A stretch of 64,000 nt of DNA, from positions 2,046,001 through 2,110,000 of the forward strand of contig NC_014364.1 in the NCBI RefSeq assembly GCF_000143985.1, given 5' to 3'. Under the pieces are notes generated by a model, which ran no database searches, was not told the DNA's origin, and saw only the letters and a program-made list of their open reading frames with translations. Positions 19,601 through 29,807 of this stretch are shown here, piece by piece (position 1 is the first letter of the stretch; each line of letters begins with the position of its first letter). This stretch comes from Sediminispirochaeta smaragdinae DSM 11293. GTDB taxonomy: Bacteria; Spirochaetota; Spirochaetia; DSM-16054; Sediminispirochaetaceae. The position numbers were made by a program, and so were the translations under genes.

Positions 19601-20925
19601 AAGGATTATCTACGTTTCCAAAGGGTGGGGTCCACCCTCCCGGTGGGAAGTCTCTTGCATCGGGAAAAGCAATCAAGAATGCGGTGCTTTCTTCAATGTT
19701 TGTGGTTCCGCTTTCCCAGCATCTTGGAAAACCGGCGGAGTGTATTGTTTCTGTAGGGGACGAGGTCCGGGAAGGGATGCTTATAGCAAAAGCTTCGGGT
19801 TTTATCTCTGCCCCGGTTCATTCTCCGGTCCCGGGAACGGTAAAAGAGATACGGGATATTTATCTTCCCAACGGCATGAAAAGCAGTGCAGTTGTGATCG
19901 AATTTGCGGGTGCATTCGACCGCCTCGGAAAAGAAGAACGGGCCGGAGACTGGACCCAACTTTCTGCCGAGGCATTAATGGCAAAAGTTGTTGAGAACGG
20001 CATCGTTGGATTGGGCGGGGCGACCTTTCCGTCTCATGTCAAGTTTTCCGTTCCCAAAGGGAAAAAAGCCGAGTATTTCGTTGTCAACGGGGTTGAGTGT
20101 GAACCCTATCTTACGGCTGATCATCGACTTATGCTCGAACGTGCGGATCAGATCATCGAGGGGATCAGGATTATCAGTCGTATTACCAATGCCGAAAAGT
20201 TGGCCATTGGTATTGAGATTAATAAGCCTGATGCCATTGCTTCGATGAAAGCGGCCGCGCAGAAGGCTAAAGTAAAGCTTGATGTTGTGCCCCTTAAGGT
20301 CAAATATCCTCAGGGCGATGAGAAGCAACTTCTGAAGGCCATAACCGGCAGAGAGGTCCCTTCCGGCGGACTTCCCCTGGATATCGGCGCTATCGTCGCT
20401 AATGTCGGAACCGTCCATGCTGTATTCGAGGCCGTGGTATTTAACAAGCCTCTCATTGAGCGGGCGGTGACGGTTACGGGCGGCGCCATAGCCGATCCCC
20501 AAAATCTGAAGGTTCGTATCGGAACGCCGATTAAGACCCTTATCGAAGAGTGCGGCGGTTTTACGGAAGAGCCTGCAAAGATCGTCATGGGCGGTCCCAT
20601 GATGGGATTTACCATTTACGATCTTGATACGCCGGTTATAAAGGGAACCTCCGGTATCCTTGCGCTGACTCGAAGGGAGGTTCGTGCGTCTACCCGGACC
20701 TTTTGTATTTCTTGCGGTAGGTGTGTAGCGGCTTGTCCGATGGGCCTTAATCCTACAACCCTCTTCAAGTTGATCGACCACGGCGACTATGCTTCGGCAA
20801 TGGAATCCGGCTTGATGGATTGTAAAGAGTGTGGTTGCTGCGGCTTTTCCTGCCCTGCCAGAATTCCTCTGGTACAGGGAATGCGGCTCGGCAAGAAGAT
20901 GGGTCGGAAAAAGAAAAGTGCGTAA
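19597..20925 (+). CDS. rnfC: Electron transport complex subunit RnfC
   Basis: RnfC is the peripheral NADH- or electron-entry subunit of the ion-translocating ferredoxin:NAD oxidoreductase. The 442-residue protein has the N-terminal FPKGGVHPPGGK, an NADH/FMN-binding Rossmann-like part with GIVGLGGATFPSHVK and VVNGVECEPYL, and two C-terminal 4Fe-4S motifs (CISCGRCVAACPMGLNP and CKECGCCGFSCP). It is full length for the short form, without the long C-terminal repeats of some proteobacterial RnfC. It overlaps the preceding membrane protein gene by 4 bp. Confidence 0.96.
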   Translation: MKGLSTFPKGGVHPPGGKSLASGKAIKNAVLSSMFVVPLSQHLGKPAECIVSVGDEVREGMLIAKASGFISAPVHSPVPGTVKEIRDIYLPNGMKSSAVVIEFAGAFDRLGKEERAGDWTQLSAEALMAKVVENGIVGLGGATFPSHVKFSVPKGKKAEYFVVNGVECEPYLTADHRLMLERADQIIEGIRIISRITNAEKLAIGIEINKPDAIASMKAAAQKAKVKLDVVPLKVKYPQGDEKQLLKAITGREVPSGGLPLDIGAIVANVGTVHAVFEAVVFNKPLIERAVTVTGGAIADPQNLKVRIGTPIKTLIEECGGFTEEPAKIVMGGPMMGFTIYDLDTPVIKGTSGILALTRREVRASTRTFCISCGRCVAACPMGLNPTTLFKLIDHGDYASAMESGLMDCKECGCCGFSCPARIPLVQGMRLGKKMGRKKKSA

Positions 20926-20942
20926 GGTCAGGTAAGGATATT

Positions 20943-22082
20943 ATGAGCGAAAAGAATAAAGAAGCTGAAAAAATAATGCGTCTTGTGGAGAGTTCTCCGC
21001 AGATACATAATAAGCAATCGACCTCGTCTATTATGTGGAGCGTTACGTTGGCCCTCCTTCCTGCCGCTGTCTGGGGCATCTACCTCTTTGGCGCCAGGGC
21101 CCTGACAGTCTTGCTTGTCTCCATTGCAGCGGCCGTCGTTACCGAGGCGATCATTGCTGCGTTTTCGGGACGATTCACTCTCTTTGACGGGAGTGCTGTG
21201 CTGACCGGCTTGTTGATAGGTTTTAACATGCCTCCTGCCGTCCCTTTCTATGTCCCGATCTTCGGTTCCGTTTTTGCCATTGCGGTGGTGAAGTGGACCT
21301 TCGGAGGTTTGGGAGGCAACTGGATGAACCCTGCCTTGGCAGGACGGGTCTTTGTCTTTTTTAGCTGGACTGGGCAAATGACATCCTGGAGTAGTCCAAA
21401 GACGGTGGTCGATGCGGTGAGCAGTGCGACTCCTTTGGGAATGTTGAAGACCGGTTTGCTCGACTATTCCGGTTCAGCAACCGGCCCTGCCGAATTCCTC
21501 AGTTCCAACGGCTTTGTTGGGAGCACCAACGGTTTGTCGCATTTTTTCACCCCGCTCTTTGGCGGCGGTACAAGTGGAAAGATCTATGCGGATCTCTTTA
21601 CAGGTAATGTCGGCGGCTGTATCGGAGAGGTTTCTGCCTTGTTGCTGATCCTTGGGGCCCTCTATCTCTTTGCCAAAAAGATTATCACCTGGCAGATTCC
21701 CGTTGCTTATCTCGGTTCTTTCGCCTTGCTGGTCTGGATCTTCGGTGGAAACCGATACGGGATGGGCGCCTTTTCCGGGGATGTCCTCTTTCATCTTTTC
21801 TCCGGAGGGATCATGCTTGGTGCGCTTTATATGGCAACGGATATGGTGACAAGTCCTCTTACCGGCAAAGGTATGATCATTTATGGGGTGGGAATCGGAT
21901 TTCTTACCTTCCTGATACGCTTTTATGGTTCTTTTCCGGAAGGGGTTTCCCTGGCAATCATCTTGATGAACATCTTTGTTCCCATGATCGACCGGTACAA
22001 CAAGCCGCATCGTTTCGGTGTTGAGCGGAAAAGGTTTATCGATCGTTTAAAGGAACAGTCGAAAGCGAGGGAGGAAGCATGA
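20943..22082 (+). CDS. rnfD: Electron transport complex subunit RnfD
   Basis: RnfD is a membrane subunit carrying covalent FMN. The 379-residue protein from ATG 20943 has several hydrophobic segments, GGLGGNWMNPALAGRVF, and the flavinylation motif DAVSSATPLG, where Thr is the expected FMN attachment site for ApbE. The stop overlaps rnfG as ATGA. Confidence 0.95.
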   Translation: MSEKNKEAEKIMRLVESSPQIHNKQSTSSIMWSVTLALLPAAVWGIYLFGARALTVLLVSIAAAVVTEAIIAAFSGRFTLFDGSAVLTGLLIGFNMPPAVPFYVPIFGSVFAIAVVKWTFGGLGGNWMNPALAGRVFVFFSWTGQMTSWSSPKTVVDAVSSATPLGMLKTGLLDYSGSATGPAEFLSSNGFVGSTNGLSHFFTPLFGGGTSGKIYADLFTGNVGGCIGEVSALLLILGALYLFAKKIITWQIPVAYLGSFALLVWIFGGNRYGMGAFSGDVLFHLFSGGIMLGALYMATDMVTSPLTGKGMIIYGVGIGFLTFLIRFYGSFPEGVSLAIILMNIFVPMIDRYNKPHRFGVERKRFIDRLKEQSKAREEA

Positions 22083-22639
22083 ACAACCCCATTGTGAAAA
22101 TCGGTGGAAGACTTGCCTTGATCTGTGCCGTTGCGGCGCTGGTCCTCGGGGTCGTAAATGCCCTCACTGAACCTCAGATTGCCAGGATTAAAGCGGAAAA
22201 GCTGAAAGCAGCCTTGGAAACCGTCTCGGGCGGAAGGAAAACGGGTGAAGCAGTAGCCGTGGACAATAATCCTGTGGTCGACCGTTATTACCCTGTATAT
22301 GGCGATGATGATCAAATCGTCGGTTACGTTTGCCAGCTTCTCGGCAGCGGTTACGGCGGTACGATCGTAATCCTTGGTGGATATGACCTGAAGGGAACGG
22401 TCCTTGCTGCCAAAATGATGGATAACGAAGAGACCCCCGGCTTAGGAAAAGAGGCTGAGAAGGCATCTTATATGGAAAAATACGTTGGTACGGGAGGCGA
22501 TAAGCCTGTTCCCGTCAGGAAAAGCATGCTCACGACCGAGCAGTCGGACAGTGTAACGGGAGCCTCCATTACGTTTATGGGGGTAGGTAAGGCGCTTCAG
22601 GAAGGATCCCGTTTTGTAGTGTCCTTGGAGGGGAAATAG
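22079..22639 (+). CDS. rnfG: Electron transport complex subunit RnfG
   Basis: RnfG is a periplasm-facing flavoprotein subunit with one N-terminal membrane helix and an FMN-binding domain. The 186-residue protein has the sequence DDEQ/VGYV-type core, NEETPGLGKEA, and DSVTGASITF near residue 160. The ApbE consensus Dxx(S/T)GA(T/S) is met, but with Ser in place of the usual Thr as FMN acceptor. It is tightly coupled to rnfD, and rnfE follows 1 bp later. Confidence 0.93.
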   Translation: MNNPIVKIGGRLALICAVAALVLGVVNALTEPQIARIKAEKLKAALETVSGGRKTGEAVAVDNNPVVDRYYPVYGDDDQIVGYVCQLLGSGYGGTIVILGGYDLKGTVLAAKMMDNEETPGLGKEAEKASYMEKYVGTGGDKPVPVRKSMLTTEQSDSVTGASITFMGVGKALQEGSRFVVSLEGK

Positions 22640-22640
22640 C

Positions 22641-23261
22641 ATGTGGAAAGAGTTTACAAAGGGGCTGTTCAGAGAAAATCCTATTTTTGTGATTGTTCTT
22701 GGACTTTGTCCTACTCTTGGTGTATCTTCCAGGGTAATTAACGCCTTGGGAATGGGTGCCGGAGTAATTTTTGTTTTGTTGTGTTCAAATATTTTTATCT
22801 CTCTGCTGAAGAATTTTATTCCGAATCAGGTGAGAATTCCTTCTTATATCGTTATTATCGCCAGCTTCGTAACCGTCGTTCAGATGGTTATGCAAGCCTT
22901 TCTTCCCGACCTTTACGACAGTCTTGGAGTTTTTGTCCCTTTGATTGTCGTCAATTGTATCATTCTCGGACGGGCGGAGGCTTTCGCAAGTAAAAACGGT
23001 GTGGGAGCATCCATTCTTGATGCCCTTGGCATGGGAATCGGTTTTACGCTGGCTCTCACGGTTATTTCTCTGGTTCGTGAAGTGTTCGGATCCGGTACCA
23101 TAACCCTTTTTGCTTTTGGTGATTTCGATGGTGTCGTGAGAATCCCCGGCATTGTCGATTCTCCCGCACGGGTATTTGTCCTGGCGGCTGGTGCTCTTCT
23201 TGTCATGGGGTATCTAAAGGCCCTTGTCGGAATCATTCAGGAGAAGGGAGGAAAGGGCTGA
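22641..23261 (+). CDS. rnfE: Electron transport complex subunit RnfE
   Basis: This integral membrane subunit of the ion-translocating core is 206 residues long with about six hydrophobic segments. The family motif FRENPIFVIVLGLCPTLGVSSR is at the start and NCIILGRAEAFASKN in the middle. RnfA and RnfE are paralogues of opposite topology, and the LGLCP cysteine helps bind the intramembrane iron-sulfur centre. rnfA begins one base after the stop. Confidence 0.95.
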   Translation: MWKEFTKGLFRENPIFVIVLGLCPTLGVSSRVINALGMGAGVIFVLLCSNIFISLLKNFIPNQVRIPSYIVIIASFVTVVQMVMQAFLPDLYDSLGVFVPLIVVNCIILGRAEAFASKNGVGASILDALGMGIGFTLALTVISLVREVFGSGTITLFAFGDFDGVVRIPGIVDSPARVFVLAAGALLVMGYLKALVGIIQEKGGKG

Positions 23262-23262
23262 T

Positions 23263-23853
23263 ATGAGCTATCTTGGCATTATTATTACCTTTGTTTTTAT
23301 CAACAACTTTATTCTGACCCAGTTTCTTGGTCTTTGCCCTTTTATCGGGGTTTCAAAAAATCTTGAATCCGCAGTTGGCATGGGGTTTGCTGTTACCTTC
23401 GTTATGGCCCTGGCCTCTTTTGCAACCTGGGCGATTTACCACCTGATTCTTGTTCCTCTTAATATTGAATTCCTTCAGACAATAACCTTTATTCTGGTCA
23501 TTGCCTCCCTTGTTCAATTTGTCGAGATGGTTATTCAGAAGATTTCCCCGCCGCTCTACAAGGCCTTGGGAATTTTTCTTCCCCTCATCACGACAAACTG
23601 TGCGGTCATGGGTATTGCCCTTATTGCCGTGCAGAATAAGTATAATGCTCTGGAGAGCTTTGTCGCGGGAATTGCTGCCGGTCTTGGATTCCTTCTTGCC
23701 ATCGTTTTGATGTCTACGATCAGGGAAAAGCTTGACAATGAATGGATTCCGAAACCTTTTCGTGGGGTGCCTATCGCTTTCATCACCGGGGGATTGATGG
23801 CCCTTGCGTTCATGGCTTTTGATAAGGCACTTTTGAACAATCTTCTAGGATAA
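23263..23853 (+). CDS. rnfA: Electron transport complex subunit RnfA
   Basis: Membrane subunit paralogous to RnfE, about 196 residues from ATG 23263. It has NNFILTQFLGLCPFIGVSKN at the start and TTNCAVMGIALI in the middle, each with a cysteine conserved in the family. An upstream in-frame ATG at 23224 lies inside rnfE and would add 13 unlikely residues. Confidence 0.95.
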   Translation: MSYLGIIITFVFINNFILTQFLGLCPFIGVSKNLESAVGMGFAVTFVMALASFATWAIYHLILVPLNIEFLQTITFILVIASLVQFVEMVIQKISPPLYKALGIFLPLITTNCAVMGIALIAVQNKYNALESFVAGIAAGLGFLLAIVLMSTIREKLDNEWIPKPFRGVPIAFITGGLMALAFMAFDKALLNNLLG

Positions 23854-23865
23854 CGGGAAAACGAT

Positions 23866-24699
23866 ATGTTACTTCTTAAAATACTTTATGCGTTTTTGGT
23901 GGTAGGGATATTGGGGGGCGTTCTCGGAGCAGCGCTCGTGGTCGCCTCAAAATTCTTTTCTGTCAGCAAAGATGAACGAATACAGCAGGTTGAGGATGCT
24001 CTGCCTGGTGCAAACTGTGGTTCCTGCGGGTATGCCGGATGTGCCGCATACGCGGAGGCCATTGCAGCCGGTGAGGCGCCTCTTACCTTATGCGGACCGG
24101 GAGGAGCAGAGGCTGCATCGAAGATTGCGGAAATCATGGGGCAGGAAGTCGAAGTCTCGGACCGAAAGATGGTTGCTCAGGTCCATTGTCGCGGCACTAA
24201 GGAGACTACAAGCTATCTGTATGCCTATCGGGGACTGAAGGATTGTAACGCTGTACACGCCCTATTTCAGGGGGATAAGGAGTGTAAATACGGATGTCTC
24301 GGTCTGGGAAGCTGTATGAAGGTTTGCCCGGTTGATGCCATATCCTATGACTCCGGTGGAAGGGTTGTTGTTGATAAAGATGCCTGTATAAGCTGCGGGA
24401 ACTGTATAGAGGCCTGTCCTACCGGTGTTATGCAGTTCGTACCTTATGAGGCAGATTATATCGTGGCGTGTAACTCGAAAGATAAAGGTGCTGCCGTTAG
24501 AAAGTATTGTAGCGTCGGCTGTATTGGGTGTAAAATATGTGAGAAAAAGTCTCCCGAAGGTGGCTTCAAGGTCGAGAATTTTCTTTCTTCGATCGATTAT
24601 GATAAGATGGGAGATAGAAGTGAAGCGGCAAAGGGTTGTCCTCCCAAATGCATTGTGCGGGTGGATTCTCTGATAAAGGGAGTCGATGAAAAAGCTTAG
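23866..24699 (+). CDS. rnfB: Electron transport complex subunit RnfB
   Basis: RnfB is the multi-iron-sulfur subunit that probably receives electrons from ferredoxin. The 277-residue protein has one N-terminal membrane helix and a 4Fe-4S domain with GANCGSCGYAGCAAY plus a later Cys (LCGPGG). Next come CKYGCLGLGSCMKVCPVDA, CISCGNCIEACPTG and a further cysteine cluster CSVGCIGCKICEKK that is usual in clostridial-type RnfB. Its 3' end overlaps the GH57 gene by 14 bp. Confidence 0.95.
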   Translation: MLLLKILYAFLVVGILGGVLGAALVVASKFFSVSKDERIQQVEDALPGANCGSCGYAGCAAYAEAIAAGEAPLTLCGPGGAEAASKIAEIMGQEVEVSDRKMVAQVHCRGTKETTSYLYAYRGLKDCNAVHALFQGDKECKYGCLGLGSCMKVCPVDAISYDSGGRVVVDKDACISCGNCIEACPTGVMQFVPYEADYIVACNSKDKGAAVRKYCSVGCIGCKICEKKSPEGGFKVENFLSSIDYDKMGDRSEAAKGCPPKCIVRVDSLIKGVDEKA

Positions 24700-26731: not shown

Positions 26732-27958
26732 TTATGTAAGAGCATAAAAGGTAGCATCTATCCAGCTAGTGCTTTCTTGTTTGTATGTCTCCCGCGAGAA
26801 AAGGAATTCATACAGGGCCTTGCCGAATTGCCCTTGAAAATAGTAGACCTGACCCATGTAAAAGTGGGCCCTTGCTTCTACTGCTTTACTCCTGTGGACG
26901 GCAAGAAAATTTCCAAGCTCTTTTTCTGCTGCATCCCACTCGGCATCGGCGAATGAGCCTTTGATGATGTTTGAAAGCAAGACCCCTTCGGGATTATCTC
27001 CCGGACTTTTGTCGATTGCCAGCATCTGGGCTTGGGGTGTGCTTTGACTCGGAGCAGGACCAAGCTCGTTGATTAAATTCTGTACCACCGTCTCCGTTTC
27101 TTTCGCAAGCGGTGTATATGTGGGTAGGGCATACTTATCTGGATCCGCCAGACTCTCGCCTGTTTTTACCGATTTTGGAAGCGTCAGATAGGGAAGTGGG
27201 CGTATCCTGACGTTCCGAAATCTTTCATTCTGTTGGGTCGTATCGGATAAGGCCACCAAAGCAGCATCATTTGTTGCGTTTTCTCCAGGCTCGAGTTCAA
27301 CTTCATCAGACTCCACCAGCTCCTTGTCGACGATTGCGTAGTAATATTCAAGGCCGGGAAGCGGAAAATCGGTTACCGATCCTTGTGAGCTGCTTAGCGA
27401 GGTCACAAGCGATGCGGAGCGTAAACCATTCTTATCGACGATAGGGTCTGAGCTTCGATAAACCATCACCGCTCGTTCAGGTAAAGAGCTTTTATAGCTA
27501 ATATAGACAACTTCACCTGCGACCCTTGCAGAAATATTGCTTATATGCGTGGCTCTTTCCTGCAGTGATGCAACCTGAACAATGGATATGGCATCATTGG
27601 TGATGTTTCTATAAGGAATATACAGCTTATACTCCCTTCCATCGGCGTCGACGGCAAGGACGGCAAAATAGTATGACTCGGTATCTTGAGGATAGTAGCC
27701 GAATACTTCGATATTCGATGCGACTTCAGCCACAAGTGTCGCATCTGTCTCTTTGTCGTTATCGAAGGAGGTGATGCTTCGGTAGATCCGATACAATACA
27801 ATTGGATCGGAAGCATCTTTCCAAGTCAGAATGATTCGATCGGTGTCTGCCATTGCTTCGAGATTGGACACAAAAGGTGCATAGACCGTCGTTGTCTCTT
27901 CTGCCCATGAATAAAGTACTGCTGTTAGCAGTAACGTAGATAAAAAGAGCCGTTTCAT
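26732..27958 (-). CDS. Exported protein with fibronectin-III-like domains, function unknown
   Basis: The 408-residue product has a signal peptide (MKRLFLSTLLLTAVLYSWA). Two or three beta-rich segments of fibronectin type III character follow (ITLTWKDASDPIVLYRIYRS, the later AVMVYRSSDPI and LEYYYAIVD), then a low-complexity stretch. A short TPR-like C-terminus (AHFYMGQVYYFQGQFGKALYEF) ends it. It is probably periplasmic or surface associated. Its 3' end is convergent with the GH57 gene. An AT-rich hairpin (26730-26749) covers the stop codon. Confidence 0.7.
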   Translation of the reverse strand: MKRLFLSTLLLTAVLYSWAEETTTVYAPFVSNLEAMADTDRIILTWKDASDPIVLYRIYRSITSFDNDKETDATLVAEVASNIEVFGYYPQDTESYYFAVLAVDADGREYKLYIPYRNITNDAISIVQVASLQERATHISNISARVAGEVVYISYKSSLPERAVMVYRSSDPIVDKNGLRSASLVTSLSSSQGSVTDFPLPGLEYYYAIVDKELVESDEVELEPGENATNDAALVALSDTTQQNERFRNVRIRPLPYLTLPKSVKTGESLADPDKYALPTYTPLAKETETVVQNLINELGPAPSQSTPQAQMLAIDKSPGDNPEGVLLSNIIKGSFADAEWDAAEKELGNFLAVHRSKAVEARAHFYMGQVYYFQGQFGKALYEFLFSRETYKQESTSWIDATFYALT

Positions 27959-27989
27959 ATCATACCTATCGGCAAAGTTGAGGAAGGGT

Positions 27990-28018
27990 TTGACACAAAA
28001 TAGGGATAGAAATACACT
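27990..28018 (+). promoter_or_regulatory. Strong predicted promoter giving a leaderless Cas2-like mRNA
   Basis: A perfect TTGACA (27990-27995), exactly 17 bp, then TACACT (28013-28018). The ATG is at 28025, 6 nt after the -10 box, so +1 should fall on or next to the start codon. The bases before the ATG (TATTT) contain no SD. Confidence 0.6.
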
Positions 28019-28024
28019 ATATTT

Positions 28025-28297
28025 ATGTTTGTTGCCGTCACCTTTGATCTTTCCGAAATCGAAAAAAAGCGTGGTATTGAATCACTTTTACGTGAATATG
28101 GCTTTGAAAAGCGGCATGAAGGACTTTGGGAGACGGTTAAGTTAAAAGAGCGTTATCTTGCTCGTCTGAAACGAGATATAGACAGATTGACCGATTCATA
28201 CGATAATGTTCGTCTTTACCAATATCCTATCGATGGAGTATTGGTGGTGACAGGTCTTCAAAATAAGCGGTGGCGACGTATTGTCGTTCGCCCGTGA
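28025..28297 (+). CDS. Small Cas2-like ferredoxin-fold protein, orphan
   Basis: This 90-residue protein resembles Cas2/VapD-type nucleases or adaptors. Strand 1, MFVAVTFDLS, has the Asp at position 8 that is catalytic or structural in Cas2. A helix follows, then YGFEKRHEGLWETVKL (the usual strand 2-3 region), a long helix YLARLKRDIDRL, and SYDNVRLYQYP, which matches the Cas2 strand DSVRxYPL. There is no cas1, other cas gene or repeat array in the window. A host-maintenance role or RNA/DNA binding is possible. It is 29 bp upstream of prfB and may share its transcript. I am moderately sure of the fold, not of function. Confidence 0.55.
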   Translation: MFVAVTFDLSEIEKKRGIESLLREYGFEKRHEGLWETVKLKERYLARLKRDIDRLTDSYDNVRLYQYPIDGVLVVTGLQNKRWRRIVVRP

Positions 28298-28326
28298 TAT
28301 AAACATTAGTGAGCGAGGAGATCAGG

Positions 28327-29428
28327 ATGCTGAGTGAACTTGAAATACCGATCGAACAATTAAAAGAAGAAATCTACAACTCCTGGAGGCGACTTTGACC
28401 CTGAGCAATTGGCTCAGGAAATAAAAGTACTTGAGGCGGAAAGTGGAAGTCCGGAGTTCTGGGAGGATCGAGAACGGGCGGAAAAGCGGCTCGGCGAGCT
28501 GAAACGGCTACATAAGCGACTTGATCCATGGAAAGATTTATTGTCTTCATTTGAGGATCTTGAAACACTTTTCGAACTCGCTGCCGAAGAACAGGATGAA
28601 AGTCAGGAACATGATATTAAAAGGCAGTTGGACGAGGTAGGCGATACCTATCGTGGGTTAAATTTAACGGAAATGTTCCAAGGGGAATTCGACGGAAGCA
28701 ATGCCTTTCTTACCATCCATTCAGGGGCGGGGGGAACTGAGGCGTGTGATTGGACCGCTATGTTGTTGCGAATGTATACCCGTTGGGCTGAACGACGGGA
28801 GTTTTCCGTTCAAACCCTTGACCTTCTTGAGGCCGAGGGAGGGGTGAAGTCGGTAACCCTTCAGATCAATGGCGATTTTGTGTTCGGTTATCTTAAAAGC
28901 GAAATCGGCGTTCATCGGTTGGTACGTATTTCTCCCTTTGATTCTAGCGGCCGCCGTCATACATCATTTGCGTCGGTATACATCTCCCCTGTTATCGACG
29001 ATGATATCGAGGTCGATATCAAACCAGAAGAACTGCGTATCGATACCTATCGGGCACAGGGAGCCGGCGGGCAGCATGTCAACAAGACCGATTCCGCTGT
29101 CCGTATTACCCACATCTCCACCGGTATCGTGGTACAGTGCCAGAACGAACGGAGCCAGTATAAAAACAAAGCCATGGCGTTGAAGATTTTACGTTCTAGA
29201 TTGTATGAACATTATAAGAAGGAGCAGGAGAAAGAACAGGAAAAACATGCTCAGGAAAAGAAAGAAATTTCCTGGGGAAATCAGATACGTTCTTATGTAT
29301 TTCAACCATACACCATGGTTAAAGATCATCGAACGAAACATGAAGTTGGAAATATTCAGGCTGTGATGGATGGTGAGATCGATGATTTTATCATTGCCTT
29401 TCTGAATTGGATGCAGACGGAAGGATAG
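28327..29428 (+). CDS. prfB: Peptide chain release factor 2 with programmed +1 frameshift
   Basis: RF2 ends translation at UGA and UAA. A 23-codon first frame from ATG 28327 ends at an in-frame TGA (28396-28398) within CTTTGAC. Shifting +1 at CTT continues in the frame that stops at 29428, giving about 366 residues. The body carries SPFDSSGRRHTSF, the stop-recognition region following the family SPF tripeptide, and the catalytic GGQ in GAGGQHVNKTDSAVRITH. GAGGAG precedes the ATG. Low RF2 slows reading of the TGA and favours the shift, so the factor regulates itself. Confidence 0.96.
28385..28399 (+). promoter_or_regulatory. prfB programmed frameshift signal
   Basis: An internal SD-like GGAGG (28385-28389) sits 3 nt before the slippery CTT followed by TGA and C. 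The spacing and CTTTGAC core match the classical E. coli RF2 site, although the SD is GGAGG rather than AGGGGG. Confidence 0.9.
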
Positions 29429-29429
29429 T

Positions 29430-29807
29430 ATGGAACGGCGGCTTCTTCTAGTAGATGATCTTAGCTTTATGCGAAGTGCGTTGAAGGAAATTCTCGAAGA
29501 AGCCGGGTTTTCCATTGCGGGAGAGGCTGCCAACGGTGTAGAGGCAATAACATTATATCGTACGGTGCACCCGTCTCTTGTCCTTATGGATATCACCATG
29601 CCGGTTATGGATGGGATTGAAGCCCTTCGTCGTATTCGACGGCTTGACCCTTCGGCAATGGTTGTCATGTGTTCTGCTTTGGGGCAGGAGAAGACAATTC
29701 TTCGTGCTATCCAATACGGAGCGAAAGATTTTGTTGTAAAACCCTTTTCCAAAGCGCGGATCGTGTCTGCCGTTGAGAAGGCGTTGGAGTCGGTGGAAGG
29801 CCTGTGA
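29430..29807 (+). CDS. CheY-like single-domain response regulator
   Basis: The 125-residue receiver domain has the acidic pair in LLLVDDLS, the phospho-acceptor Asp in LVLMDITMPVMDG, the Ser switch residue in VMCSALG and the Lys in FVVKPF. No output domain follows, so it acts through protein contact, as CheY does. The VMCSALGQEKTILRAIQYGAKDFVVKPF stretch is typical of chemotaxis-type CheY. The start is 1 bp after the prfB stop, and the end overlaps the next gene as GTGA. Confidence 0.93.
   Translation: MERRLLLVDDLSFMRSALKEILEEAGFSIAGEAANGVEAITLYRTVHPSLVLMDITMPVMDGIEALRRIRRLDPSAMVVMCSALGQEKTILRAIQYGAKDFVVKPFSKARIVSAVEKALESVEGL

Follow-up and report, generated by a model that had tools for sequence, protein, structure and literature searches.

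A solo Cas2 family linked to the release factor 2 gene in spirochaetes and expressed from a predicted leaderless promoter

The window studied here is a stretch of 64,000 nucleotides from the single-contig, 4.65 Mb genome of Sediminispirochaeta smaragdinae DSM 11293. It carries on its forward strand a small gene (28025-28297; ATG start, TGA stop) whose 90-residue product we identify as a Cas2-fold protein from Pfam and Foldseek matches, an AF2 model, residue conservation and dN/dS, and which we call solo Cas2. Its stop codon is followed after 29 nt, on the same strand, by the ATG of prfB, encoding release factor 2 (RF2). This ATG (28327), the true start of prfB, lies 6 nt behind the Shine-Dalgarno (SD) sequence GAGGAG (28315-28320) and opens a zero frame (28327-28398) with 22 further codons before an in-frame TGA (28396-28398), an arrangement that recurs in relatives. 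The TGA belongs to a programmed +1 frameshift site, GGAGG ... CTT TGA C (28385-28399, with CTT-TGA-C at 28393-28399), and the +1 frame that continues prfB (28397-29428) matches PF03462 and PF00472. Upstream, on the reverse strand, a divergent gene (26732-27958) encodes a 408-residue protein with weak TPR profile matches, which is often, though not always, kept upstream of the solo gene in relatives. A run of open reading frames at 20829-24699 resembles an Rnf electron-transport operon, as judged from their translations.

The 90-residue protein is a genuine Cas2 homologue, and canonical Cas2 is nearer to it than VapD. It matches the Pfam family PF09827 (CRISPR_Cas2), a profile that 23 of the 29 solo family members match, with 27.8 bits against a cut-off of 23.8, and the PADLOC profile Cas2_IIIa with 39.4 bits (E 1.6e-10); its score for TIGR01573, the NCBIfam CRISPR Cas2 equivalog, is 21.5 bits, below the cut-off of 24.5. 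The AF2 model, computed from the protein with 29 relatives (pLDDT 94.5, pTM 0.83), has the order b-a-b-b-a-b-b-b (b1 2-8, a1 12-24, b2 28-31, b3 34-37, a2 42-55, b4 61-69, b5 72-79, b6 82-88), confirming the Cas2-like strand and helix pattern that a sequence-only reading of this DNA had proposed. The top Foldseek matches in the PDB are nearly all Cas2 or Cas1-Cas2 chains (probability 0.98-1.00, TM 0.57-0.67), with E values of about 2e-3 for the leading matches of this short query; they include 1zpw (TMq 0.65), 3exc (0.67) and 4es2 (0.66 at an rmsd of 1.5), whereas VapD (6zi1) first appears at rank 36 with a TM of 0.58, compared to 0.65-0.67 for canonical Cas2. The earlier reading had offered Cas2 or a VapD-like protein, and had named a different fold or the lack of any Cas2 or VapD profile match as evidence against itself. 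Profile search and structure prediction agree on Cas2, so that this part of the proposal stands; the VapD part is not supported, VapD being the weaker structural neighbour and a VapX-like partner being absent.

The Cas2 active-site region is kept in part and lost in part, a pattern under which catalysis may be possible. The N-terminal Asp (D8) pointed out in the sequence-only reading is present, and each of the 107 distinct family members has an acid at position 8 (D in 98, E in 9); the b3 glutamate E36 is likewise invariant (107/107). The Tyr-Asp motif at the end of b1 has kept its acid and lost its Tyr: Tyr7, found in 20 of 20 aligned CRISPR Cas2s, is replaced in the solo family by C, L, V, I or, in two members, F. 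The Ser of the 'QxSxF' stretch of CRISPR Cas2 is also missing. Marks of the family itself are the invariant positions K49, D53, Q66, P68 and W83 and a basic C-terminal strand, KxW[RK][RK].

Neither cas1 nor an effector gene or a repeat array turned up in the surroundings of 28025-28297. The earlier statement to this effect is right for the locus and wrong for the genome, where a cas1-cas2 pair with repeats behind it lies elsewhere, near 1.127 Mb. Presence of the solo gene is nonetheless independent of CRISPR: among 60 related genomes it occurs, always as one copy, in 29 (the window's own included), and cas1 is found in 12 of these 29 carriers versus 13 of the 31 non-carriers (Fisher p = 1), leaving 17 carriers that have no cas1 at all. 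In a tree, the solo family and the CRISPR Cas2s that these genomes encode fall into separate groups, with a support of 100/100. Identity among the 29 carriers is 38-54%, except for a same-genus relative at 99%. A wider search of 84,980 species genomes found 192 relatives, the best 80 of which are all in records assigned to spirochaetes, bar one titled just 'bacterium', and among 296 genomes scanned within the phylum, strong matches came from Spirochaetia and from a few members of another class; relatives were not found on plasmids, phages or viral contigs. One match of 37 residues in genome G226 (E 7e-4), inside a 321-residue frame away from prfB, was taken as chance. A sister group from another class of Spirochaetota (L172-L178) has a solo Cas2-like protein of 31-36% identity that keeps the YQ[YF]P and KW[RK]R motifs; prfB adjoins the gene in none of these seven loci, the neighbours are varied and the starts are mostly SD-like.

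The median dN/dS of close pairs of the solo gene (n=21) is 0.06, and distances within the solo family follow those of prfB (Mantel r 0.77, permutation maximum 0.08). Presence and absence on the prfB tree require about 13 changes, at least 6 of them on supported branches, from which we infer ancestral presence followed by several losses. No gene remnants were found by profile in 40 prfB loci without the solo gene. Genomes without the gene are smaller (mean 2.5 vs 3.7 Mb, p 1e-5). Roughly half of the relatives do without it, small genomes more often than large ones, so that the gene is dispensable. Solo Cas2 is thus an ancient, CRISPR-independent and vertically inherited Spirochaetota family under strong purifying selection, and its identity as such is close to certain. 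The word 'orphan' used of it before undersells a conserved family that is anything but a stray gene; 'domesticated', in the sense of CRISPR independence, is well chosen for a separate clade with no cas1 association that is conserved across the class Spirochaetia.

In all 114 prfB-type loci, prfB lies directly downstream of the solo gene on the same strand (29/29, 80/80 for the best 80 of the 192 relatives, and 5/5), even where the upstream neighbour has changed. The link to RF2 suspected from the window is thereby upheld by synteny across Spirochaetia. The gap between the two genes has a median of 18 nt, with 12 overlaps, and co-transcription is likely because no terminator is predicted between them. 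An RNA element between the genes was considered and rejected, Rfam giving no match at E 0.1 in 27800-29500. A promoter-like sequence, TAGACA-17-GATAAT, lies inside the solo gene at 28179-28207; it is perhaps an internal prfB promoter and may be due to chance. The idea that the solo gene is tied to the prfB frameshift was also rejected, as 107 of 107 carrier prfB loci have the CTTTGA site and so do nearly all of those that lack the gene. One prfB gene (L147) has no CTTTGA site, unlike nearly all other spirochaete prfB genes examined. Nor do the stop codons of the solo gene (TAA 49, TGA 31, TAG 27) show the UGA bias that might be imagined for a feedback by RF2.

A serious rival to a shared function is that a nucleic-acid-acting solo Cas2 has a job unrelated to RF2, and is held beside prfB by slow change in gene order and by a good shared promoter. 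The 408-residue protein, a PEGA protein and ftsY are also syntenic in many genomes, the sister family of the other class sits in varied neighbourhoods, and genomes without the solo gene show no change in prfB or its frameshift. The constancy of the prfB link in all 114 loci (80 of them the best 80 of 192) despite changed upstream neighbours, together with the tight spacing and the overlapping genes, speaks against such a passenger linkage, which we consider possible but hold only tentatively.

The solo gene is preceded by a -35 box, TTGACA (27990-27995), and, 17 nt further on, by a -10 box, TACACT (28013-28018), that ends 6 nt before its ATG, a geometry that recurs in relatives and from which the transcript is predicted to start on the A of the start codon or within about one base of it. 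The information content upstream of 107 distinct loci lies in TTGACA at -35 to -30, TAnnnT at -12 to -7 and a pyrimidine at -1 (85%). In 95 of these 107 loci, compared to 6.7% of shuffled upstream sequences, the last base of the -10 box is 5-8 nt from the start codon, and SD-like words are not enriched before the solo gene (7 vs 9 in shuffles, 107 loci); among prfB starts in carrier genomes, 104 of 105 are SD-led. The prediction of a leaderless message made from the window is thus borne out as a comparative result. Leaderless-looking starts were also seen for the divergent 408-residue gene in 9 of 19 relatives tested, and the window's genome has 45 TTGACA-N16..18-TAnnnT-N4..7-ATG sites against 5 in a reversed control, which probably represent a sizeable class of leaderless genes. 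About 440 leaderless mRNAs are described in Leptospira (PMC5243855). Because leaderless starts are frequent in spirochaetes, this feature alone need not mean special control.

In genomes without the solo gene, prfB itself has the leaderless geometry in 6 of 37 cases, versus 1 of 105 prfB starts in carriers (Fisher p 0.001). The -10 box is exactly 6 nt from the prfB ATG in five of them (L152, L158 and L217-L219), the sixth (L166) being borderline; L217-L219 are nested next to the carrier L186 on a supported branch, and the carriers L018/L019 group with L158. In these few cases, and in genomes where leaderless-type starts are frequent, the solo gene looks to have been lost from start codon to start codon, with its promoter kept, in at least two lineages, apparently leaving prfB as the leaderless first gene. 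L151, which also has no solo gene, is only a weak case of a prfB lying 6 nt behind a -10 box without a Shine-Dalgarno sequence. The five loci with prfB directly behind the promoter would fit a non-catalytic, DNA- or RNA-binding autoregulator, a Cas2-fold dimer that binds at the promoter or 5' end of its own gene and so adjusts how strongly the prfB operon is expressed, as would the position of the gene as first cistron, the overlap of the promoter with the start codon and the conserved '[G-rich]TTTGACA' context. A conserved operator-like motif was not found at -48 to -37, a weak G-run excepted, and the sister family has no prfB linkage, both of which make such autoregulation unlikely.

The explanation we favour, with a probability of about 0.5, is that this solo Cas2 family member is the leaderless first cistron of a prfB operon and encodes a small protein, made together with RF2, that binds or cleaves RNA. 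The protein would be a homodimer as in Cas2, binding nucleic acid through the Cas2 core and the basic C-terminal strand specific to the family. Its leaderless message could be read directly by 70S ribosomes, so that the protein might be made even under weak SD-led initiation. RNA cleavage would be the single likeliest biochemical activity, because the acid at position 8 and E36 are kept, though we put it forward as a doubtful proposal. The lost Tyr7 and Ser and the nine members with E at position 8 weigh against the favoured explanation. The linkage also makes a connection with translation termination attractive. In its strongest form, the protein would be a housekeeping partner of termination, a Cas2-fold RNase or RNA-binder with mRNA or ribosomes as its target, in termination or under starvation, or one that sets the output of RF2. 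Counting against the action on RNA in translation that the sequence-only reading had suggested, prfB and its frameshift site are independent of the solo gene, the gene was lost several times, and the sister group of another class, where the solo protein can evidently exist without a link to RF2, has lost the prfB linkage; we regard this strongest form as improbable.

A VapD-like RNase toxin of a toxin-antitoxin pair would have the fold (6zi1) and an equivalent Asp in common with solo Cas2. We nevertheless rejected it as very unlikely, with canonical Cas2 being closer, the examined loci showing no small partner gene that is conserved, no mobile relatives, and an inheritance that is vertical, at a fixed locus and under strong purifying selection. 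Least probable of all, and likewise rejected, is a displaced CRISPR adaptation subunit serving the genome's Cas1, as the cas1-cas2 locus near 1.127 Mb that could suggest it has its own Cas2 and cas1 shows no association with the solo gene.

Cas2 is thought to come from an RNase-like (VapD-type) ancestor, and to our knowledge no role has been established for any Cas2 outside CRISPR. In many spirochaete species the solo clade is strongly selected and has a fixed partner gene and promoter geometry, which makes the question of what Cas2 does outside CRISPR directly testable. As a probable leaderless gene conserved throughout the class, it is also of use in studying leaderless initiation in spirochaetes. 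Having been kept for very long in many spirochaetes outside CRISPR, the protein probably has a housekeeping job that is so far undescribed. In the open-access literature we found nothing on solo or orphan Cas2, nor on Cas2 together with spirochaetes and prfB; the fold is known already, and the solo, prfB-linked, leaderless Cas2 clade is new as far as that literature goes.

Solo Cas2 has the ferredoxin-like fold and the size of CRISPR Cas2 (PF09827/TIGR01573; T. thermophilus TTHA1823, 1zpw; S. solfataricus SSO8090, 3exc; B. halodurans, 4es2), as well as the acid at the end of b1, the Q-x-x-x-[FWY]-E of b2-b3, D60 and the R-x-Y of b4. It differs in the change of Tyr7 to C or L, in its invariant K49, D53, Q66, P68 and W83 and its additional basic b6 strand, and in being inherited vertically beside prfB, with a predicted leaderless start and no Cas1, array or effector nearby. 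The VapD toxins (6zi1, 6zn8) share the Cas2-like fold and the N-terminal Asp; they are a weaker structural match, and the solo family has neither a VapX-like antitoxin nor mobility. A parallel in the phylum is Cas2C of Leptospira interrogans, which comes from a subtype I-C locus that has no CRISPR array; it is reported to have metal-independent RNase activity, and roles beyond CRISPR have been suggested for it (PMC9510766). Like the solo family it is a spirochaete Cas2 without an array; unlike it, Cas2C lies in a cas locus and has retained Tyr7 together with the RVQ/SVF motifs. The solo family branches apart from the phylum's CRISPR Cas2s, which are represented in the tree by sequences other than the Leptospira Cas2C.
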